DNA of 57,152 nucleotides, taken from positions 1-57,152 of the forward strand of contig JAFUIQ010000038.1 of the NCBI GenBank assembly GCA_017468385.1, read 5' to 3'. The notes under the pieces were generated by a model. It saw only the letters and a list, made by a program, of their open reading frames with translations. It was not told the DNA's origin and did not search any database. The position numbers and the translations under genes are program-made. Position 1 is the first letter of the stretch. The number at the start of each line of letters is the position of its first letter. Below, one piece after another: positions 8,196 to 18,546 of this stretch. Source of the stretch: Clostridia bacterium. Its GTDB lineage: Bacteria > Bacillota > Clostridia > Oscillospirales > CAG-272.

Positions 8196-8243
8196 CAAAA
8201 AACATACGCGAAAAAGGTCCCCCTTCCCCGCGTATGTATTTTT
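8196..8243. terminator. Bidirectional terminator between DUF2264 gene and mazF
   Basis: Arms ACATACGCG (8202-8210) and CGCGTATGT (8229-8237) flank a C-rich loop. The plus strand continues ATTTTTATC and the minus strand TTTTTTGTAAC. It serves both convergent genes. Confidence 0.7.
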
Positions 8244-8613
8244 ATCGGATCTGGTTCTCCGCACCCGGCGCAAGCAGGCCGAAACTGATGCCTATGGCAT
8301 CGTTGACCGCGCCCATCATATCCTCATCCAGATGCCCCATCTTTTCCCGCAGCCGTTTTTTATCAATGGTGCGTATCTGCTCCAGCAGTACCACAGAATC
8401 CCGGGACAATCCGACCTGGTCGGCATGGATATCAATATGAGTCGGCAGTTTCGTTTTGCCCACTTTGCTGGTGATCGCGGCCGCGATCACCGTCGGGCTG
8501 TATCGGTTTCCCACATCGTTCTGCACAATCAGAACCGGTCGGAGACCGCCCTGCTCACTGCCGATGACAGGACTGAGGTCTGCGTAATAAATATCTCCGC
8601 GCTTGATACTCAC
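8242..8613 (-). CDS. mazF: PemK/MazF family toxin (mRNA interferase), solitary
   Basis: The GTG start at 8611-8613 is preceded by GGAG nine bases upstream and gives a 123-residue protein starting with [20 protein letters not shown], the standard MazF opening. A longer frame reaching 8817 adds about 68 residues with no family similarity. Diagnostic segments are [39 protein letters not shown], the arginine and threonine of [11 protein letters not shown], and [10 protein letters not shown]. MazF enzymes cleave single-stranded RNA at short motifs and are held by a small MazE-type antitoxin. No antitoxin frame precedes it; the upstream 256 bases carry only the divergent promoter of the SPFH gene. 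Such NdoA-like chromosomal copies exist in Firmicutes, sometimes separated from a partner. Confidence 0.9.
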
Positions 8614-8808
8614 GCTATCACACTCCGTTTTGGTATACTTCCCGCGGCGAGTGCCGCCCTTGTGGATATAGTATTTTCCGCCCGCCCCGCTTTTAGTCAC
8701 GGCAGACAAAAAATCCTCACTCCCCGCACTGTCAGTATATTCGACACCGCCCCGATCCGCCATTGCGGATCGGGATTGTAAATAAAATGTAAATTCCCCG
8801 GGTATATC

Positions 8809-8869: not shown

Positions 8870-9889
8870 ATGGAAGAAAAGATTCTGAAAGCAAAACGGG
8901 GTATGGATGTACTGATTTACTCCATCATCGCCTATGTGATCGCCTTCGCGGCCATGATCTACGGCGGCATTCTTATGGACGAGGGACGCACCTACGGCAT
9001 TCCGCTGTTCGTCATCGGTCTTGTGTGGATCTGCATCGGTTGGCTCCCTTTCCTGGGCCTGCGCGTGCTGAAGCCTCAGGAGGCTCTGGTGCTGACACTG
9101 TTCGGTAAATACACCGGCACTTTGAAGGGCGAGGGATTCTACTACATCAATCCCTTCTCCGTGGCCGTCAACCCGGCGGCGAGAACCTCTCTGCGCCAGA
9201 GCGGTGATGTGAACTCCGAGGTGAAGCCCGCCATCTCCGTGTCCTCCACGGGATCGGTCAGCGTTGCCCCGGCGGATAAAAAAATCTCCCTGAAGGTCAT
9301 GACGCTGAACAACAACAAGCAGAAGATCAACGACTGCCTGGGCAATCCGGTGGAGATCGGCATCGCCGTGATCTGGCGTGTGGCGGACACCGCCAAGGCG
9401 GTATTCAACGTGGACAACTACAAGGAATTTCTGTCCCTGCAGTGCGACGCGGCTCTGCGCAACATCGTGCGTGTATATCCTTATGATGTGGCTCAGAATG
9501 TGGATACCACCGGCGACGGCGAACCGGATGAGGGATCCCTGCGCGGCTCCAGCGAGATCGTGGCGGAGCGGATCAAGGGCGAGATCCAGTCCCGCGTAAA
9601 CGCGGCCGGTCTGGAAATCGTGGAAGCCCGCATCACCTATCTGGCTTACGCGCCGGAGATCGCGGCCGTCATGCTCCAGCGGCAGCAGGCATCCGCCATT
9701 GTGGACGCCCGGAAGATGATCGTGGACGGTGCGGTCGGCATGGTAGAGATGGCGCTGGCCAAGCTGAACGAGAACGACATCGTCCATCTGGATGAGGAGC
9801 GCAAGGCGGCCATGGTATCCAATCTGCTGGTGGTTCTGTGCGGCAACAAGGACGCACAGCCCGTGGTGAACTCGGGTAGTCTGTACTGA
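8870..9889 (+). CDS. SPFH/Band 7 domain membrane protein
   Basis: The 339-residue protein has two N-terminal hydrophobic stretches (about residues 15-33 and 46-64), followed by [33 protein letters not shown], the classic start of the SPFH (stomatin, prohibitin, flotillin, HflK/C) domain. It continues with [40 protein letters not shown] and a C-terminal helix rich in A, E and M ([30 protein letters not shown]). Members oligomerise on the membrane inner face and organise microdomains or proteases. Ribosome binding site AAAGGAGTGGTATT fixes the start. The stop overlaps the start of the ribbon-helix-helix gene by one base (TGATG), implying translational coupling. Confidence 0.88.
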
Positions 9890-10202: not shown

Positions 10203-10258
10203 AAAAGCCTCCCTTGTGGCGAGAAACTTGTTTCTCGCCACAAGGGAGCCTTTTCTTT
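10203..10258 (+). terminator. Long-stem terminator
   Basis: A perfect 19-bp stem (10209-10227 with 10230-10248) has only two loop bases and is followed by CCTTTTCTTT. The stem begins CTCCCTTGTGG, the same word that opens the palindromic element at 36024. Confidence 0.85.
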
Positions 10259-10279: not shown

Positions 10280-10320
10280 AATAAAGTTCCCACAAACCGT
10301 TCGGTCTGTGGGAACTTTTC
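10280..10320 (-). terminator. Terminator of the six-gene transporter operon
   Basis: Arms AAGTTCCCACA and TGTGGGAACTT lie just behind the stop of the minus-strand gene at 10322. The minus strand continues TATTTTAT and the plus strand TTTTCATT, so it may work both ways. Confidence 0.75.
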
Positions 10321-10321
10321 A

Positions 10322-10789
10322 TTATGCGGGTATCGCTTGCTTCGTCGGACGTTTTTTATACCGACGAATCAGCCAGACACACAGGAAAATCTCAAGGGCG
10401 AGTGCGGCGTAAAGCCAGAAAATGCTAAGATCCACGTCGCCCACGATGGTTGTAAGAATCAACATCCCCAGAGCCGTCATCCGGTCGCCAAGAATCAAAT
10501 AATCAAACATGCCGCTGCGATGGATCCGTACCAATGCCACGATCCACAGGACAATAAACACCGCTAAAATCAGCAGCCACAGCAAGCACCATTCCGCTTG
10601 ATCCATAAAGTAGCCGAACAGAACGGCATAGTACAAAGAGCACTGCGGCACATGAAACCCGAGAAGACTTCCCAACACATGAACGCCAAAGGGGGCATTG
10701 CTGAAGTGGATAAAGACTCCAATAACGGTAAAAACGCTCCACCACACAGCAAAGGAGATACGCGTCCATTTTTGGTTTATGTACGTCAT
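10322..10789 (-). CDS. Four-helix integral membrane protein of unknown function
   Basis: The start is placed at ATG 10787-10789 (MTYINQKWTR), behind AGAGGAGTCC; a longer frame would run into the preceding gene's end. The 155-residue product is almost entirely hydrophobic, with probable helices at roughly residues 10-30 (ISFAVWWSVFTVIGVFIHF), 36-58, 67-88 (CLLWLLILAVFIVLWIVALV) and 104-145, and a basic end RRYKKRPTKQ. I do not recognise a family. Only 31 bases separate it from the solute-binding gene, and a terminator follows, so it is the last gene of the transporter operon and may be a membrane component of it. Confidence 0.7.
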   Translation of the reverse strand: MTYINQKWTRISFAVWWSVFTVIGVFIHFSNAPFGVHVLGSLLGFHVPQCSLYYAVLFGYFMDQAEWCLLWLLILAVFIVLWIVALVRIHRSGMFDYLILGDRMTALGMLILTTIVGDVDLSIFWLYAALALEIFLCVWLIRRYKKRPTKQAIPA

Positions 10790-10820
10790 CTCTTTTGGAC
10801 TCCTCTCTTGTTTCCCGGAA

Positions 10821-13334
10821 TTACCGTCTTTCCGCCACATAGGTGGACACGCGGTTCTGGATCACGCGGGCCGTTTCGTCCAGGGATTTCTGTCCGGCGA
10901 AATACTGGGCCGCCTCTTCCTTGATGATATTGTTCACAGGCACGTTGTACCGCTGGACATGGTTCAGGGATTTCACGAAAGCGATCAGCTCATCCGCCAT
11001 TTCCTCATCCAGGAACACGCGGAATTCACTCTGCGGATAGGGATTGGGCATGCCGATCACGCCGCCTATGATGGGGGCCGATGTATCCACGGAGATCTCC
11101 GTATCCACCGCCTCCTCGGATTCCACAACTTCCTCCGTTTCGGCGGGAGCGGCCGTTTCCTCCGAGGTTTCCACCCGGGGTACAACCACCATATCGTCAT
11201 CGATGATGCCGTCATCGCCCTGGTTCTGCTGCCATTCCTCCCAGTTTTTCTTTTCCTCGGCCTGCTGCTCGACCACCTTATCCGCCAGCTTCTCCAGAGA
11301 GGACACACGGAGCGGGAAGGTGTACGTCAGGCTGTCCTGATATTCTTCGGTGAGGAAATAGCTGACGAAGGCCCACGCGCCGTCGATCACGGGGGATTTG
11401 GCGCTGATGGCAAAATTCATATCGTCCATGGTGATCACCGATCCGTTGCCGTTCATGGAAGGCAGGCCGATGGGGGTGATATTCTCCGAGTAGAAGGTAT
11501 GATTCATCATGCTGACATAGGACTCAAAGGACTGGATGTAGGCATGCTCCAGCATGGCCGCATCGGAGCGGAATCGGTTCTGGTACGCCTGGTAGAAGGT
11601 GTCGTCGTACTCCTCCTGGCTCTCCCAGATGGATTTGGTGGGAAGGGTCTTCACGTATTCCAGCACCTGCTTGAAATCATCGGTGTCGAAATAGCACTTG
11701 CCCGTATCCGCGTCCACGAATTCCTCATAGGCCAGGGTGCAGAACAATTCCAGCATCTGGTCTCTTGTCATATCGTAGAACACCACCGATTCCTCGGGGA
11801 TTCCCTTGGCCCACTGCAAAAATTCGCCCATGGTCCATTTCGTGCGGCCGCCCAGCATTTCTTCCTTACCGAGCAGGGTCTGCACGGTGAAGGAGGGCAT
11901 GATCTCATACAGCTTGCCGTTCACCTCCAGTGCCTGCAGCACATTGGGCAAAAAATCCTCCCGCTTCATGCCGGGATCGTTGTCGATGAAGGTGTACAGA
12001 TCGGCCAGAAGGCCCTTGGAGATGTAGTTGGACAGGGGCATGTAGGGGCTGACCAGCAGGATATCGGGCATCCGGCCGGCAATGATGTCGTTGTTCAGGG
12101 CGGTGACCGCCTGATCCATCATAGCCTGGTAATTGTACTCGCCCTCGCCGTTGTACTCCTGCAGCTCGTATTTCTTGATCTGCACCCGATACTCCTCGCT
12201 CTGGCGATTGAAGCGGAGCACCTTCTCCCGCAGATTCCAGTCATCGCCCACCACGGCGAGGGTCAGGATGAATTTGGGCACCACCTGATCGTCCGGCACC
12301 CGGTTCAGCATCATGATGGCTTCCTCACCGCTCAGATCGTCCCAGCCGCGGGCGATAAACTGATCCTGGGAGAGGATAATCAGCTCGTTCACGTTGGTGA
12401 CGGACAGATCGGAGTTCATAAAGTCCATCAGCTTGGTGGATGCGCCGGTGGCGGCATCGTAGCCGAACACGGCTTCCTGGGTGCTGTAGTAGAAGGTGTA
12501 TCCCTCACCGGCGTAGTAATTCCACACGTTGGCGAAGGTATCCGTATCCAATTCCACAGGGGCCAGCATCTTCTGGGCCTCCCAGTCCACGCCGATCATG
12601 GACATCTTGTTCACATTGCCGGAATAGTCGTTATAAAGCACGGTCAGCTCGCCGCCCGACGCCATCACATTGGTGATATAGCCGCCGTTCATGAGCTCCG
12701 ACACGTCGATGGTGCTGACCACCGTGCCGTCGCCGCTCATGCGGTACAGGGCCCGGTCGGAATCCAGGAACACCAGATCCTCCCCCAGCAGCTGGGCCCG
12801 GTTGATGTAGTGGTAGATGTATTCCCCATCCACCTCGCCGGAGGTATCGCCCCAGACATCCCTGGTGTCCACATCCGCCAGCACGGTGCCGTCGGCGGAA
12901 AGATGGACGATGCGGGTGTTTTCCGTATATTCATAGGTTTCCTCATCGTAGTGGGAGGAGAAAACCACCTGCCACAATGCCCCGTCGGGTGCGAAGAGCA
13001 TCTGCTGCACATAGCTGTTCTCGCCGATCTCCACGCCGGGCATATCCACCCGCGTCACGTTGGAGCCGTCCATGCCCATACGGAACAGGCGGGTTTCGGA
13101 CTGGTAGGTTTCCCGGTCGTAATAGGTACCGTACATATAGATGCTGCCGTCCTTCACAAACAGCCGCTCGATGTAGCTGATGTCCTCCGGCTTTTTCAGA
13201 TAGGAGGCACGGTATACGTGATCCACAATCTGCTTTTCGGCCACTTGCTTTTTGCCGCATCCCGCAAAAGAGGATGCACATCCGGCCAGCAGAAGAGCGG
13301 CCAGAGCCGCGGACAAAATCCGTTTCAATTTCAT
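10821..13334 (-). CDS. Extracellular solute-binding lipoprotein with N-terminal beta-propeller-like region
   Basis: The 837-residue protein has a lipoprotein signal (KRILSAALAALLLAGC, cysteine about residue 19). Residues about 45-340 are made of short strand-rich repeats of the type RLFRMGMDGSNVTRVDMPG, VHLSADGTVLADVDTR and RMSGDGTVVSTIDV, as in a beta-propeller. From about residue 350 (FILTLAVVGDDWNLREKVLRFNRQS) it becomes a family-1 solute-binding domain ending IIKEEAAQYFAGQKSLDETARVIQNR. An acidic, E/T-rich insert (about residues 700-745) lies near its end. Ordinary sugar-binding lipoproteins are 420-560 residues, so the propeller is a clear addition. Ligand unknown; a glycan or peptide is plausible. 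Ribosome binding site AAAAGGAGTCTGAC. It is the fifth gene of the operon, after the ectodomain gene. Confidence 0.88.
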   Translation of the reverse strand: MKLKRILSAALAALLLAGCASSFAGCGKKQVAEKQIVDHVYRASYLKKPEDISYIERLFVKDGSIYMYGTYYDRETYQSETRLFRMGMDGSNVTRVDMPGVEIGENSYVQQMLFAPDGALWQVVFSSHYDEETYEYTENTRIVHLSADGTVLADVDTRDVWGDTSGEVDGEYIYHYINRAQLLGEDLVFLDSDRALYRMSGDGTVVSTIDVSELMNGGYITNVMASGGELTVLYNDYSGNVNKMSMIGVDWEAQKMLAPVELDTDTFANVWNYYAGEGYTFYYSTQEAVFGYDAATGASTKLMDFMNSDLSVTNVNELIILSQDQFIARGWDDLSGEEAIMMLNRVPDDQVVPKFILTLAVVGDDWNLREKVLRFNRQSEEYRVQIKKYELQEYNGEGEYNYQAMMDQAVTALNNDIIAGRMPDILLVSPYMPLSNYISKGLLADLYTFIDNDPGMKREDFLPNVLQALEVNGKLYEIMPSFTVQTLLGKEEMLGGRTKWTMGEFLQWAKGIPEESVVFYDMTRDQMLELFCTLAYEEFVDADTGKCYFDTDDFKQVLEYVKTLPTKSIWESQEEYDDTFYQAYQNRFRSDAAMLEHAYIQSFESYVSMMNHTFYSENITPIGLPSMNGNGSVITMDDMNFAISAKSPVIDGAWAFVSYFLTEEYQDSLTYTFPLRVSSLEKLADKVVEQQAEEKKNWEEWQQNQGDDGIIDDDMVVVPRVETSEETAAPAETEEVVESEEAVDTEISVDTSAPIIGGVIGMPNPYPQSEFRVFLDEEMADELIAFVKSLNHVQRYNVPVNNIIKEEAAQYFAGQKSLDETARVIQNRVSTYVAERR

Positions 13335-13346
13335 GTCAGACTCCTT

Positions 13347-14411
13347 TTATTCCGATGTATGTTTGGGGCGGGTCAACCGATTGTAGGTTTCCTCTGTGTG
13401 CTCCTTCATCGACCGCGCACCGCGGCCGATGGCATCCCCCGCCGGTTTCCAGGCGATACCGATCCAGACCAGGCACAAAAGCACGGCCAGGGACAGAAGG
13501 ACGATCTCCGCCATCAGCAGAGACGCACAGCGGTACTGGGCCACCTGCGCCACGTTCTCCCACCAGGGATACGTGACCGGGGACACCCGCACGCCCAGGG
13601 TATCCATATGAGTGATATATTCCCACAAAGCGGGAACGGTAAAGCGGGAGGAATTCTCCACCACCACCGCGTCATCGCCGGGGGCAAAATGGGTTTCAAA
13701 CACATCCCGGGCAAATCCGTCCACGGGATTGGGCAGCACCGCTTCGTACACGGCGATCTCCCCGGCGTATTTGGCCGCCGGCGAATCAAAGAGAATGTAT
13801 GCCCGGGGAATCTCCCCGTAGGCATCATCGTACACCGTGCCCGCGGGGACTTTTCCCACGCCGCACACGATGTATTCTCCCTCACCGATGGTGACGGGCA
13901 TGCCCACCACGTGCAAAGCACCGAACAACTTCCACGCGGCCCGCTCATCCAAAAACACATATCCCGCGTTTTCCCCGCCGGGGGAAAGGTAACTGCCGCT
14001 GAGGATCTCCGGCCGGTGGATGTAGAAATACTCGCCGCCGAACACGGTGACACGCAGATTGGCGCTGTCCCGCTCGGTGCGGGCGTACATATCCGTCTCG
14101 GTGCTGTAGGCACAATACCACAGCCGTCCCCCCGCGGGGGATTCCAGGGATGCATCGGTCATGGCACGATCCACCGCGGCGGTGAGAGAATAGATCCGTC
14201 CGGGTACATCCCCCTCCCCCTCGGCGAAAAAGCCGCTGATCTGGGAAGCACCCCGGCCGTTCCATCGCCGGGCGGCCTGCTGATCCGTCAGCGCATCCGC
14301 CGTCTGGCGGCGAAGGATCCCGAGAATACCGGCGGCGCACAAAAGCAGCGCCAGGGCGGCGGCAGACAGAATCAGCGCTAAGCGCATTTTTTTATGTAGC
14401 TTCATCATCAT
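13347..14411 (-). CDS. MacB-core-like ectodomain membrane protein (ABC permease-like)
   Basis: The 354-residue protein has an N-terminal helix (LALILSAAALALLLCAAGIL), a large extracytoplasmic region, and a second helix near residue 295-320 (CASLLMAEIVLLSLAVLLCLVWIGIAW), followed by a basic cytoplasmic tail. The middle includes RVTVFGGEYFYIHRPEILSGSYLSPGG and YVFLDERAAWKLFGALHVVGMPVTIGEGEYIVCGV, the pattern of the MacB periplasmic core domain found in FtsX-type permeases. A true FtsX permease has four helices; only two are seen here, so it is a reduced form. Its start overlaps the adaptor stop (ATGATGA), giving tight coupling. A role in moving or scaffolding an exported substrate with the adaptor is inferred. 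Confidence 0.72.
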   Translation of the reverse strand: MMMKLHKKMRLALILSAAALALLLCAAGILGILRRQTADALTDQQAARRWNGRGASQISGFFAEGEGDVPGRIYSLTAAVDRAMTDASLESPAGGRLWYCAYSTETDMYARTERDSANLRVTVFGGEYFYIHRPEILSGSYLSPGGENAGYVFLDERAAWKLFGALHVVGMPVTIGEGEYIVCGVGKVPAGTVYDDAYGEIPRAYILFDSPAAKYAGEIAVYEAVLPNPVDGFARDVFETHFAPGDDAVVVENSSRFTVPALWEYITHMDTLGVRVSPVTYPWWENVAQVAQYRCASLLMAEIVLLSLAVLLCLVWIGIAWKPAGDAIGRGARSMKEHTEETYNRLTRPKHTSE

Positions 14412-16684
14412 CCGTTATTTTCGCTGAGGCGCACCTGCATGCCGTCGGAGATGGGCGACGCCGATGTGGTGATCACATACTGGCCGCTGACCGCGCCGGA
14501 CAGAGCGGAATTGGTATCGTCGGAGGCGATCACTTCCACCGGCACCCGCTTGGCGGTGTACCGATTGCCCAGAGGTGTGCTCTTGGCGCTGACGATCAAA
14601 ACGAACTTGCCCTCCGCGTCCTCGCGGACGGCGCTGTTGGGCACCACGCAGTCGTAGGATGCATTCTTATCGCCCATGGTGAAGGTGATGGATGTGCCCG
14701 GGGACACCTCTCCGGTCACGCTCAGGGTGATGATCTTATTTTTGCCCTGGCTGGCGGCGTCGGATTTGACAGACACCACCCGGGCCGTGGGGGCCTCGCC
14801 CCAATAATACCACTGCAGGGCAGCCTCATCGCCTACCTTGACCTTGGCCGCCTGCTCGGCGGTCACCGTGCATTTCACGGTGTATCCCATATCCGCCACG
14901 GTGATGGTCATCAGAGCCGCATTGGCCTCCGCTGTCTTGCCCACCAAAGCGGAGATGGATTCGATCACGCCCGCTACGGGAGAGGTAAGCTCGCTCTGCA
15001 CGGAGATCTTCTCCAGACGGGCAATTTCCTTCTCCTGCTTGGCGATCTGATCCTCGATCCGCTTCACTTCGATTTCATACTGCTTCCGGTTCAGCTGGGC
15101 GGTATCGCTGGTACCGTCGGCGTTGGCCTTGGCCGCCGCCACCTGCTTTTCCAGATCGTTTATCACCTTGGTCTGTGCGGTGATCTCCCGATTCTTTTCA
15201 TTGACACGGGTCTGGATCTGGCGGACGCCCTCGTCGGAGCCGCTGTCGATCAGCGCCTGCGCATCCCGCATCTGCTTTTCCAGATCGTTTTTCTTTTGGG
15301 TCAGTTCTTGGATCTCCTCACCCAGTTCTTCGTAACTCTGGTACTTCTGGATCTGTTTCAGATCCGCCTCGGCCTGCTTCGCGGTGGACTCGGCCTGCTC
15401 ATACTGGGCCCGGCACTGCTCCAACACCATTTCCGCATCCCGCAAGCTTACCCGAATAGTTTCCGCGTCGGCCTCGGCCTGCTTCACCGCGCCGTTCAAA
15501 CGGCCCAGCATAATATCGGACTGCATGGACTGCATATACTGCATGACCAGCGTATTGTACTGCTGCTCCGCCGTGTAAACGCTCTGGCGCAGCTGCAGCA
15601 GCGCACGGTATTCGCTCTCCAATGGCTCCAGGGCTTTGGCCGCCGCTTCCACAGCCGCCTTCAAAGCCGCCAGATCCTCCGCCGATGCGGAATTCTTTTT
15701 GGCATCGTATTCCGCCCGGGCGGCGTCGTAGGCTTTCTTCGCCTCCTGGTAGCGATCTTCCGTGAAATACCGCTCCTTCTGCTCCAGCTCGGCTTTCAGA
15801 TTATCGTATTCGGCTTTCTTCTGGCGGACCGTCTCCGCCGTCACGCTGCCGGGACGCTTGGATTCGTAATCCGTCACGGCGGCCTTGGCCGCATCCACGG
15901 CCATCTGAGCATCCTCCAGCCGGGCTTTCCATGTCTTGGCATCCGCATCCGCCTGGGCATAGGCCAGAGCGGCCTCGCCGTACACCTTTTGTGCGGCGTC
16001 ATACGCGGACTGGGCCTGGGTCAGAAGATCGGCGATCTCCTCGGCGGTGTAGTAGCCGTTGCCGCCCAAGGTGCCCTGCTTGCCGCCCAGACGGGCGATC
16101 TCCGCCGTATAGTAATCCACCATGGACTGTGCCTGGGACATTACGATCTTGGCGTTCTGGATCTCATCGTAGGTGGGAATTTTGGCCTGCTGGGCCTTAA
16201 TATCCGCCAATTCCGTCTGGATCAGTGCCAGGGTCGCCTTGGCATCGTTCAGTTCGGAGAGAAGTGCCTGATAGGTATCCTTGGCCGCATCGGCCGTGAG
16301 GGCCGGATCCTCCTGCTTTTTGCGGATCAGCTCCAATTCCAGATTGCTGAGGGCCAGTCTGGCCTCATCCAGTTCCCGGGAGTCGCCCGCTTCCAGCTTC
16401 ATGAGGACATCGCCCTTGGCCACGCTCTGGCCCACCCGCACGGCGATGGATTCCACCACGCGGGACTGCTCGATGCTCACCGTGTAGCTCTGGTTGGCTT
16501 CCACCACGCCGGTGGCCCGGATGCGGGAGGCGATGGATGCATACTGGGGATACTGCACCGCCACCTCGGGCAGGGAGTGATTCAGGATGGTATTGGAAAA
16601 CAGCGTCAGAACCAGCAAAACCAGCAAAATGATAATGATGGCGTTGCGGATCCAGATACGGCGTTTGGTTGTGGATTCAGTCAT
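14408..16684 (-). CDS. HlyD-type membrane fusion/adaptor protein with long coiled coil
   Basis: The ATG at 16682-16684 (MTESTTKRR) is preferred over a GTG two codons upstream because of its spacing from AAAGGAAGTA. The 758-residue protein has one N-terminal helix (NAIIIILLVLLVLTLFSNTI). A first lipoyl half-motif follows (VVEANQSYTVSIEQSRVVESIAVRVGQSVAKGDVLMKLEAG), then a very long alternating charged coiled coil (about residues 100-530). The second lipoyl half (LTSPVAGVIESISALVGKTAEANAALMTI) and beta-barrel/MP regions with PNSAVREDAEGKFVLIV complete it. The order matches HlyD/MacA adaptors, which normally link an exporter in the inner membrane to outer components. The coiled coil is unusually long. 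In a single-membrane cell it could reach through the wall. Confidence 0.85.
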   Translation of the reverse strand: MTESTTKRRIWIRNAIIIILLVLLVLTLFSNTILNHSLPEVAVQYPQYASIASRIRATGVVEANQSYTVSIEQSRVVESIAVRVGQSVAKGDVLMKLEAGDSRELDEARLALSNLELELIRKKQEDPALTADAAKDTYQALLSELNDAKATLALIQTELADIKAQQAKIPTYDEIQNAKIVMSQAQSMVDYYTAEIARLGGKQGTLGGNGYYTAEEIADLLTQAQSAYDAAQKVYGEAALAYAQADADAKTWKARLEDAQMAVDAAKAAVTDYESKRPGSVTAETVRQKKAEYDNLKAELEQKERYFTEDRYQEAKKAYDAARAEYDAKKNSASAEDLAALKAAVEAAAKALEPLESEYRALLQLRQSVYTAEQQYNTLVMQYMQSMQSDIMLGRLNGAVKQAEADAETIRVSLRDAEMVLEQCRAQYEQAESTAKQAEADLKQIQKYQSYEELGEEIQELTQKKNDLEKQMRDAQALIDSGSDEGVRQIQTRVNEKNREITAQTKVINDLEKQVAAAKANADGTSDTAQLNRKQYEIEVKRIEDQIAKQEKEIARLEKISVQSELTSPVAGVIESISALVGKTAEANAALMTITVADMGYTVKCTVTAEQAAKVKVGDEAALQWYYWGEAPTARVVSVKSDAASQGKNKIITLSVTGEVSPGTSITFTMGDKNASYDCVVPNSAVREDAEGKFVLIVSAKSTPLGNRYTAKRVPVEVIASDDTNSALSGAVSGQYVITTSASPISDGMQVRLSENNG

Positions 16685-16712
16685 TTTCACTACTTCCTTT
16701 CAGAATGGTGGC

Positions 16713-17618
16713 TCAGCCCTTCAGGCCGCCGGAATAGGACACACCCTCCACGAGGGAATCCTCACAGTACAAGAAAATCAGCAAGGGAATGATCATGTAG
16801 ATCGACGCCACGGAGAAGGCGATGCCCGCGTCTCCCGCGTTGATCTTGGACAAAAACACGGACAGCGGATGGAGATCCACCGCCTCATTGGTCAGGAGCA
16901 CCAGCGGCTGTTCCACCATGTTCCAGTAATCGATGTATACCAGTATGGCCACGGAGGCCACGATGCCCCCCGACATGGGTGCGCAGATTTTCGTGAAAAT
17001 CTGCCACTCGCCGGCCCCGTCCAGTTTGGCGGCTTCGATCACCGAGGAGGGGATGCGCCGCATGAATTTCGTCAGGATAAAGACCGCGAAGGGGGAGAAG
17101 ATGCCGGGCAGGATGATGGCCCAGCGGGTGTCCAGAATCCCCAGCCAGTCGGCTACCAGATAATTGGGCACCAATGTGACCTGATAGGGCATCAGCATCA
17201 GAATGATGTAGGCGAAGAAGATGCCGCTGCGCCATTTGGTATCGAACCGGGCAAATCCGTAGGCAGCCAGGAGGGCCACCAGGGTCTGGAAGATCACAAT
17301 AGGCACCACCAGAATCACGGAATTCCAGAATTTCAGCAGATAATCCGGGCTTTTCAGCAGCACCGTTTCGTACTGGCTGAAGCTGACCAGATCGGGGATG
17401 ATCTTCAGATTCACCCGGTCGGCCACGTAGGTCCCGGCGGAGGTGACGCTCTCAAAGATCTTGCCGTAATTGGAGGCGATCTCCGATTGGGACATAAAGG
17501 AATTGGTGATCGTCAGAACGATCGGTGTGATAAACAACACGGACATGGCGCCAAGGAATACTGTGGCGATGCCGAGCAGCGCGGTGCGCGCCAAGCCGTG
17601 GATTTTTTTCATTTTCAT
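16713..17618 (-). CDS. Carbohydrate ABC transporter permease (MalG/UgpE type)
   Basis: The start is ATG 17616-17618 (MKMKKIHGLARTALLGI), behind TTGAGGAGTGACCAT; a TTG start five codons upstream overlaps that binding site. The 301-residue protein has six probable helices and the EAA loop EAAKLDGAGEWQIFTKICAPM (about residues 200-220), where the importer ATPase docks, ending with the family-typical KG (EGVSYSGGLKG). It forms the channel with its partner at 17623. The extracellular loop between helices 1 and 2 is longer than usual. No ATPase gene is present, so a shared MsmX-like ATPase is expected. Confidence 0.92.
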   Translation of the reverse strand: MKMKKIHGLARTALLGIATVFLGAMSVLFITPIVLTITNSFMSQSEIASNYGKIFESVTSAGTYVADRVNLKIIPDLVSFSQYETVLLKSPDYLLKFWNSVILVVPIVIFQTLVALLAAYGFARFDTKWRSGIFFAYIILMLMPYQVTLVPNYLVADWLGILDTRWAIILPGIFSPFAVFILTKFMRRIPSSVIEAAKLDGAGEWQIFTKICAPMSGGIVASVAILVYIDYWNMVEQPLVLLTNEAVDLHPLSVFLSKINAGDAGIAFSVASIYMIIPLLIFLYCEDSLVEGVSYSGGLKG

Positions 17619-17622
17619 ATGG

Positions 17623-18546
17623 TCACTCCTCAATATCCTTTCCCAGCTTCCGATCGATGAGGAACAGAATACCGATAATGATCATCATAACGATTCCCAT
17701 GAGGATCGCCGCGCTGGACAGCTTCTGGTAGTCCAGGCTCTTGAACATATTGTTCATGAAATGCTGCAGCAGATACAGCGAGTCGTAGGGGTAATCGCCT
17801 GTCAGCAGATACACCTCCCGGAACACCTTGAAGGAGTTGATCACCGACAGAATCGTAACAAACAAAATGGTGGAGGACAAATACGGCACCTTGATGCGGA
17901 AGAAGGTGCGGAGCGCACCGGCACCGTCCAGGGCCGCCGCCTCCGTGATCTCCTTGGGGATGCCCGCCAGGGCGGCCATGAAGAGGATCATATTGTATCC
18001 CACGTTCTTCCACAGATAGAGAAGCACGATGGTCAGCTGGCTGAAATCGCTTTTGAACCAGTCGATGGCGGTGCCGCCCCAGGCGATGAGCCATTCGTTG
18101 ACCACGCCGTTGTTGTGGAACAAAACCTCCCAGATCAGCACGACGGAGGCGATGGGCACCATCAGCGGGCTGATGAGGATCGTGCGGAACAAGCTCTTCA
18201 TGGGGATCTTCTCCATGAGGAGGATAGCAAACAGAAGGGGGATGATCACCGCCAGCGGCACGGCGATCAGGGAAAAGGTGGCCGTATTGGCCGCGGCCCG
18301 CCGGAAGGCCGTATTCTGAAGCAGGGCAATGAAATTGGACAGCCCCACGAAATCGCCCGATATGGGGTTATCCACCAGGCTGTAGTAGATCACCACAAGG
18401 AACGGTGCGAGAAAAAATATGCTGACGCCGATCAGGCTGGGCACAAAAAACCACCTGGTGCGGCGCATCTCTTTGATTCTGGCTGTATCCCGGCACTGCC
18501 GGTCGGCGCGGCGGTCGGATCGCTTCTTTTCGGTTACTTTCATCAT
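17623..18546 (-). CDS. Sugar ABC transporter permease (MalF/UgpA type)
   Basis: The 307-residue protein (start ATG 18544-18546, weak AGAAAAGAG binding site) has six helices, beginning TRWFFVPSLIGVSIFFLAPFLVVIYYSL. Its EAA loop reads EAAALDGAGALRTFFRIKVPYL (about residues 210-231). The ITEAAALDGAGA form is typical of carbohydrate uptake family 1 permeases. It is the first gene of the operon and ends four bases before its partner permease starts. A basic N-terminal stretch (KKRSDRRADRQCRDTARIKEMRR) precedes the first helix. Upstream on its strand is an AT-rich region with a GAAACGTTGAAAC sequence reminiscent of LacI-family or CcpA sites, but no confident promoter. Confidence 0.92.
   Translation of the reverse strand: MMKVTEKKRSDRRADRQCRDTARIKEMRRTRWFFVPSLIGVSIFFLAPFLVVIYYSLVDNPISGDFVGLSNFIALLQNTAFRRAAANTATFSLIAVPLAVIIPLLFAILLMEKIPMKSLFRTILISPLMVPIASVVLIWEVLFHNNGVVNEWLIAWGGTAIDWFKSDFSQLTIVLLYLWKNVGYNMILFMAALAGIPKEITEAAALDGAGALRTFFRIKVPYLSSTILFVTILSVINSFKVFREVYLLTGDYPYDSLYLLQHFMNNMFKSLDYQKLSSAAILMGIVMMIIIGILFLIDRKLGKDIEE

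Follow-up and report, generated by a model that had tools for sequence, protein, structure and literature searches.

A conserved clostridial gene set linking CUT1-type importer permeases to an HlyD/MacA-type adaptor and a MacB-like ectodomain protein

Two kinds of ATP-binding cassette (ABC) transporter come closest to the locus described here, which occupies positions 10322–18546 (minus strand) of a 57,152-nt stretch of DNA, hereafter the window, that is an entire contig (JAFUIQ010000038.1) of its genome (Clostridia bacterium, Oscillospirales, CAG-272; assembly GCA_017468385.1). The locus holds a module of two permeases (permA and permB), an adaptor, a MacB-like ectodomain protein and a binding lipoprotein. 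The first related kind is the CUT1-type importers of Bacillus subtilis powered by MsmX, in which we know of no adaptor or MacB-like protein. With the module these share two BPD_transp_1 permeases, a binding lipoprotein and an orphan multitask ATPase (PMC7658222), and they differ from it in that the module permB has a motif and an insertion of its own. The second kind is represented by Spr0693-0694-0695 of Streptococcus pneumoniae and YknXYZ of Bacillus, which likewise combine an HlyD/MacA adaptor with a MacB ectodomain protein of the same fold, but have an exporter ATPase and a four-helix permease (PMC5768738, PMC5985334). What sets the module apart from such Gram-positive MacAB exporters is that its permeases and ATPase are of the importer type, that it includes a binding protein and that its MacB form has two helices. 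Reviews openly ask why such adaptors exist in bacteria that lack an outer membrane, and pair them with exporters (PMC5985334, PMC4446572). Our literature search, with subscription journals mostly out of reach, found no title or abstract describing the pairing of importer, adaptor and MacB as one system.

We found that permA, permB, the HlyD-type adaptor and the MacB-like ectodomain protein constitute a conserved four-gene core that is linked to a binding protein. We propose below that the module is an ABC importer of the CUT1 type (type I) that bears an extramembrane apparatus derived from MacAB, a reading for which the odds seem to us even.

A conserved four-gene core

A query with the window MacB-like protein matched 16 of 146 relatives, the window's genome included. 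The order permA–permB–HlyD–MacB was present in 13 of the other 15, and the contigs of the remaining two (L022, L032) start inside the operon. A profile of 17 MacB-like proteins (A1) gave matches in 169 of 391 genomes of the class at E 1e-3, among which all 28 at or above 59 bits and two weaker ones were opened. The adaptor gene lay directly upstream in 28/28 of the former, and permB was found in 27/28, the last locus (L075) being cut by the contig end. As for the weaker matches, G485 (53.6 bits) carries the module, and G499 (53.1 bits) has at locus L208 an ordinary MacAB exporter, with an adaptor, a MacB/LolD-type ATPase and a four-helix MacB, but without the module permeases.

Searches based on permB led to the same arrangement. 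Its WNMVEQP motif was invariant (29/29 sequences), and the corresponding DNA pattern occurred at eight places in seven of 398 genomes of the phylum, the window among them, with the module at 8/8. A permB profile (A6) run on 249 phylum genomes at E 1e-50 or better produced eight matches: five at 440–511 bits, all with the module, and three at 175–183 bits that serve as controls, being ordinary CUT1 pairs without an adaptor or ectodomain gene. With the same profile, GTDB yielded at least 582 confirmed places, of which the best 80, leaning to near relatives, were used (one, L150, is the same contig as L030). Among these 80, the adaptor follows permB in 78 (158 and 95 nt are left in L165 and L179), the MacB-like gene is present in 72 (no more than 2,406 nt remain on the contigs of the other eight), permA comes before permB in 78 (the contigs of L108 and L160 begin with permB or shortly ahead of it) and a binding protein is found on one side or the other in 73. 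When all sets were pooled, the MacB-like gene was present in all 98 permB rows that had over 4 kb of space, and the adaptor in 109 of the 110 that had over 1 kb; only a second permB-like gene in L085 lacked it. The GTDB module records include Oscillospiraceae and Lachnospiraceae assemblies and, as isolates, Kineothrix alysoides, Acetivibrio ethanolgignens and Maledivibacter halophilus. Conservation of the core across loci rules out a chance arrangement. Moreover, the neighbourhood checks clearly showed the adaptor and ectodomain genes to be conserved beside the permeases, with core order kept across relatives. A lack of such conservation would have refuted a preliminary description of the window, made from its sequence alone, in which these genes were held to belong with the importer permeases; in this respect the description is borne out.

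One operon could nevertheless serve two devices: an ordinary importer, and an adaptor with a MacB relic working on its own, say as a stalk holding the lipoprotein or enzymes in the wall, or in export via a borrowed ATPase. Contact between the parts is a prediction, and some loci have no recognisable binding protein near the core. However, the MacB-like family was always found with the permeases in the loci opened, save at contig ends and in the distant exporter L208, and the permB–adaptor–MacB order is fixed while the binding protein switches side and the ATPase varies. We regard two separate devices as rather unlikely.

Some loci depart from the simple arrangement. In L034 (6213–14437) the four-gene core occurs twice in tandem with four-helix MacB forms, the adaptor of the first copy being short (324 residues) and that of the second recognised as a short piece only. 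A second permease pair, with unusually long permA-like frames (830 and 870 residues) and no adaptor seen, lies near the module in L084 (126–3508) and L085 (2445–5940), and a 1150-residue FtsX/MacB_PCD protein is encoded directly upstream of it in L175 (1049–4501). Frames of 1339 and 1129 residues upstream of the module in L142 and L157 match the adaptor profile, perhaps through the coiled coil only. The window genome has two other MacB_PCD genes (L035, L036), and no module protein was found in the stretches around them.

The MacB-like protein and the adaptor

The MacB-like protein (354 residues; 13347–14411, minus strand) scored 29.1 bits (cut-off 27) against MacB_PCD of Pfam. In its AlphaFold2 (AF2) model (mean predicted local distance difference test score, pLDDT, 94.1; predicted template modelling score, pTM, 0.87), two membrane-length helices (residues 3–39 and 283–347) flank a single ectodomain. 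A profile of 78 MacB-like proteins matched, in the PDB, MacB ectodomains (1.7e-13), YknZ (4.7e-10) and Spr0695 (5xu1; 4e-7). In Foldseek, the window model matched MacB 5gko first (3.3e-11) and Spr0695 at 1.6e-10; the 50 matches listed comprise MacB, YknZ, Spr0695, LolC/E, YbbP, HrtB, BceB and a putative permease domain (3is6), with moderate query-normalised TM-scores (0.25–0.43). Sequence and predicted fold together identify the ectodomain protein as MacB-derived. As in MacB/FtsX permeases, the core ectodomain lies between the first and second transmembrane helices (TM1 and TM2), but there are two helices instead of four, and the window operon has no fused or adjacent MacB/LolD-type ATPase. 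In Spr0695, TM1 and TM2 pack as the core and are flanked by TM3 and TM4, with TM2 ending on the cytoplasmic side in the coupling helix (PMC5768738), so that the two-helix window protein would keep a Spr0695-like core plus the TM2 tail.

The adaptor gene (14408–16684, minus strand) encodes 758 residues from an ATG, or 760 from an upstream GTG, with a 462-residue hairpin between two lipoyl halves. The protein scored above the Pfam cut-offs for Biotin_lipoyl (28 bits; cut-off 22.1) and HlyD_3 (26.1; 22.2) and below that of the RND_mfp model (62.2; 94.9), and it has the split lipoyl domain, hairpin and beta-barrel of HlyD/MacA adaptors. The lipoyl and barrel parts are of constant size, most adaptors having about 100 residues before the hairpin and 193 after it, but the hairpin itself varies from 51 to 643: 51–133 in the ten four-helix loci measured besides L083 (for L206, one piece only), 245 in L083, which is also four-helix, and, with the split two-frame adaptor of L117 set aside, 165–643 in two-helix loci. 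If each residue adds 0.15 nm and a hairpin has two arms, these lengths correspond to heights of ~4–10 nm in four-helix loci, 18 nm in L083 and 12–48 nm in two-helix loci, with 35 nm for the window.

In a permA+permB tree of 125 tips (three being ordinary CUT1 pairs as outgroup), the ten four-helix loci included fell outside a single clade that holds the remaining 112 module tips, all of them either two-helix or truncated ahead of the MacB gene. Helices were counted by a hydropathy rule, except for the window protein (AF2), and automatic calls were swapped after reading the tails for one locus each way (L178 to two-helix, L083 to four-helix). The two-helix clade had a support of 0.90 in the combined tree, 0.81 with permA and 0.71 with permB; support for the module clade was moderate (0.744), against three outgroup pairs only. 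Thus, four-helix MacB forms with short adaptors are basal, and two-helix forms with long adaptors belong to one derived clade that includes the window. Detected binding proteins of four-helix loci have fewer than 500 residues and no propeller half, except in L083 and L204, and those of two-helix loci reach at least 640 residues in 88/95, the other seven being shorter frames, some at contig ends. The tree and these lengths place MacB helix loss, adaptor growth and the general possession of a propeller half in the same part of the tree, and the two MacB helices were apparently lost once. With two helices and the MacB ATPase gone, the module might also be what is left of a decaying MacAB exporter that remains beside an importer by accident. 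We find this very improbable: the core is kept across deep branches, and frames are intact in nearly all loci opened, the exceptions being the split or short adaptor frames of L206, L117 and the second copy in L034.

Permeases, ATPase and binding lipoprotein

The permA (17623–18546) and permB (16713–17618) products, both encoded on the minus strand, scored 43.3 and 44.1 bits, respectively, against BPD_transp_1 (cut-off 26.4), and NCBIfam equivalog models such as UgpA and GlcU matched them below their cut-offs. In alignments with ordinary CUT1 permeases, EAA coupling loops are kept in both, and permB is set apart by its own motif, WNMVEQP, and an extracellular insertion. The window locus thus has the two EAA-loop permeases and the solute-binding lipoprotein of a CUT1 importer, and a candidate MalK/MsmX-type ATPase with OB/TOBE domains is encoded by an orphan gene of the same genome, outside the window operon.

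The preliminary description had noted that neither an importer-type nor an exporter-type ATPase is encoded in the operon, and we likewise found none among the window operon genes. This can now be sharpened, since in 17 of 116 related loci an MsmX/UgpC-like ATPase gene adjoins the core, namely the L090 gene and 16 others that share 52–69% identity with it, a count that leaves out an L021 relative on the opposite strand, some 4 kb off. Two loci outside these 116, L192 and L207, also have an ATPase beside the core (371 and 365 residues). The five tested were all above the NCBIfam UgpC cut-off, with OB_MalK and TOBE_2, and by these family models the ATPases beside the core are predicted to be of the importer type (MsmX/UgpC), so that the likely motor is of the importer kind. 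A MacB-type ATPase hidden nearby was considered and discarded: none was seen beside the cores, and the gene with ABC motifs that follows L160 is ABCG-like.

The orphan UgpC-type ATPase of the window genome scored 487.9 bits (cut-off 432), and in the 19.9 kb around its gene no permease of the module kind was found by profile. Its best PDB matches were 7x0q and B. subtilis MsmX (6yir). The former, whose PDB name is merely 'ABC transporter related protein', is taken to be Clo1313_2554, the stand-alone ATPase of Clostridium thermocellum transporter B (PMC9601137), because the Clo1313_2554 structure was solved in that paper. All four MsmX residues examined for serving an importer, D77, R104, E110 and K154 (PMC7658222), are kept in the orphan, which appears a suitable motor candidate for the window importer. 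The full set is present in only 3/7 core-side ATPases (L090–L094, L112, L207), with D77 and R104 in 7/7.

The lipoprotein (837 residues; 10821–13334, minus strand) matched SBP_bac_1 with 29.9 bits (cut-off 26). Its AF2 model (mean pLDDT 87.3) has an all-beta, propeller-like N-terminal half followed by a binding-protein fold of the CbpC kind, CbpC of C. thermocellum being both the best PDB match of the binding-protein profile (3e-44) and the top Foldseek match of the model (1.7e-14). The lipobox cysteine is invariant in 60/60 aligned binding proteins, and the LPAM_1 model scored below its cut-off. In L142, L144, L153, L164, L168 and others, at least two binding-protein genes lie around one core, up- and downstream, as though one machine served several ligands. 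Neighbouring genes offered no common theme as to cargo among the loci opened. Genes for glycoside hydrolases (GH) do occur: a GH13-type gene precedes four loci (L153, where it was Pfam-tested, with relatives in L161, L162 and L166), GH9 is found beside L202 and GH1 beside L173. Glycan-like oligomers are weakly indicated as cargo.

CbpC also links the module to a known transporter. CbpC (PDB 7x0o) and the binding protein of L206 agree at 437/437 aligned residues, so L206 is the locus of C. thermocellum transporter C, whose operon has been given as Cthe_2125-2128 (PMC8303734) and clo1313_2783-6 (PMC11212667). A true member of the family, it has CbpC beside permA, permB, HlyD-type adaptor pieces and a MacB-like gene; unlike the window, it has a short adaptor, a binding protein without the propeller half and a four-helix MacB form. 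Transporter C is treated as a sugar importer, with the MacB-like part unmentioned in the accessible parts of the papers concerned (PMC9601137, PMC11212667, PMC8303734, PMC7471329). cbpC or its operon genes were expressed more on xylose or after growth on glucose (PMC7471329, PMC8303734), and an 'acra' gene, its operon unspecified, is listed among five sugar transporter operons (PMC9601137, Fig. 1 legend).

Reading-frame analysis placed six genes in the window operon, all on the minus strand and spaced by 4, 28, −4, 12 and 31 nt, in line with the −4 to 31 bases first reported. The last, which has no Pfam family, encodes a four-helix protein of 155 residues (10322–10789, minus strand), or 172 with an earlier ATG; it was rejected as a machine part, with relatives in just 2/97 genomes (the window's own and one at E 4e-4). 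The unit proper therefore has five genes, and the preliminary interpretation stands as regards the adaptor and ectodomain protein going with the importer and the absence of an ATPase gene, and loses its sixth member. A strong terminator-like hairpin (16 pairs and a T-rich tail) lies at 10318–10283 (minus strand), past the last gene. A promoter scan returned six sites, all on the plus strand, against 6.2 in shuffled sequences, and hence no promoter evidence for the operon. Beyond it, an 18-pair hairpin with T-rich tails on both strands (10209–10248) is likely a bidirectional terminator. Two further genes, judged by eye from their translations, presumably encode an SPFH/band-7 protein (8870–9889, plus strand) and a MazF-type toxin (8242–8763, minus strand). 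In L200, a band-7/flotillin gene lies directly past the module.

A possible importer with a wall-spanning adaptor

We infer import from the importer-like permeases, binding protein and ATPase type, and a wall-spanning role from the hairpin length and from the hexameric tubes reported for MacA and Spr0693 (PMC5985334, PMC5768738). In such an importer, the two-helix MacB-like protein, retaining the helices that form the Spr0695 dimer core, would act as a platform on which the adaptor docks. The adaptor, like MacA and related proteins of Gram-positive bacteria, would probably be hexameric and, if its helices are straight, would stand as a tube or palisade ~35 nm tall that could cross much of the Gram-positive wall. 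The lipoprotein would take solute at or near the adaptor base and pass it to permA and permB, and an MsmX-type ATPase would drive it inward, as in an importer with a snorkel.

Several observations weigh against this importer. The 35-nm height presumes straight, continuous helices, and the older four-helix MacB forms of relatives could still couple to an ATPase. A recognisable binding protein is missing from 7 of the best 80 GTDB loci (of which only L111 is long-flanked on both sides) and from seven loci of one family (L084, L086, L089, L199–L202), glycosidases stand beside few loci, and the second permB-like gene of L085 (294 bits with the A6 profile) has no adaptor within the following 2,444 nt. 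As for transporter C, the adaptor gene (L206, 9634–10987, minus strand) is frameshifted into two frames in the C. thermocellum genome examined. An extra loop blocks the CbpC pocket, none of the sugars tested was bound in isothermal titration calorimetry or nuclear magnetic resonance, and a mutant in transporter C showed normal growth with glucose, cellobiose or Avicel (PMC9601137). A review lists sub-micromolar CbpC binding from an earlier study (PMC11212667), so that sugar binding by CbpC is disputed.

The blocked pocket would also suit a transducer rather than a nutrient importer, in which the motor consists of the CUT1 permeases and the MsmX-type ATPase. Its strokes would reach the adaptor by way of the MacB-like protein (mechanotransmission) and serve to move or sense something in the wall, with the binding protein acting as gate or sensor. 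MacB passes ATP-driven motion outward (PMC5985334), and an OmpR-type response regulator, often divergent and upstream, lies in the flanks of 22/128 loci (L118, L125, L137 and 19 more). Nonetheless, most loci have no such regulator nearby, the window MacB-like protein has lost two of the four helices, and permeases, binding protein and ATPase all resemble those of an ordinary importer; we consider a transducer unlikely. Returning to the importer, we would only tentatively, and with some doubt, go further and see in it a new class of uptake machine, in which an adaptor tube on a motorless MacB relic extends the transport path or the binding protein through the peptidoglycan, to a height tuned in each lineage (~4–48 nm) by hairpin growth.

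None of the parts of the module is new, and one member has already been studied as a sugar importer; should the adaptor turn out to belong to the transport path, the class would be new. Caution is called for with transporter C, which was assessed through growth on three sugars and whose adaptor gene is frameshifted in the genome examined. The module could also explain why an 'acra' gene is listed with the sugar transporters of C. thermocellum. What makes the proposal testable is the series of adaptor lengths, the apparent single helix loss and a binding protein of solved structure whose pocket is disputed. A conserved gene set found in many Clostridia thus includes an adaptor that could be long enough to reach far into the wall. 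In a large family such an adaptor and a MacB relic are set on an importer, which suggests that in thick-walled cells solutes may need some conduit or scaffold to reach the membrane.

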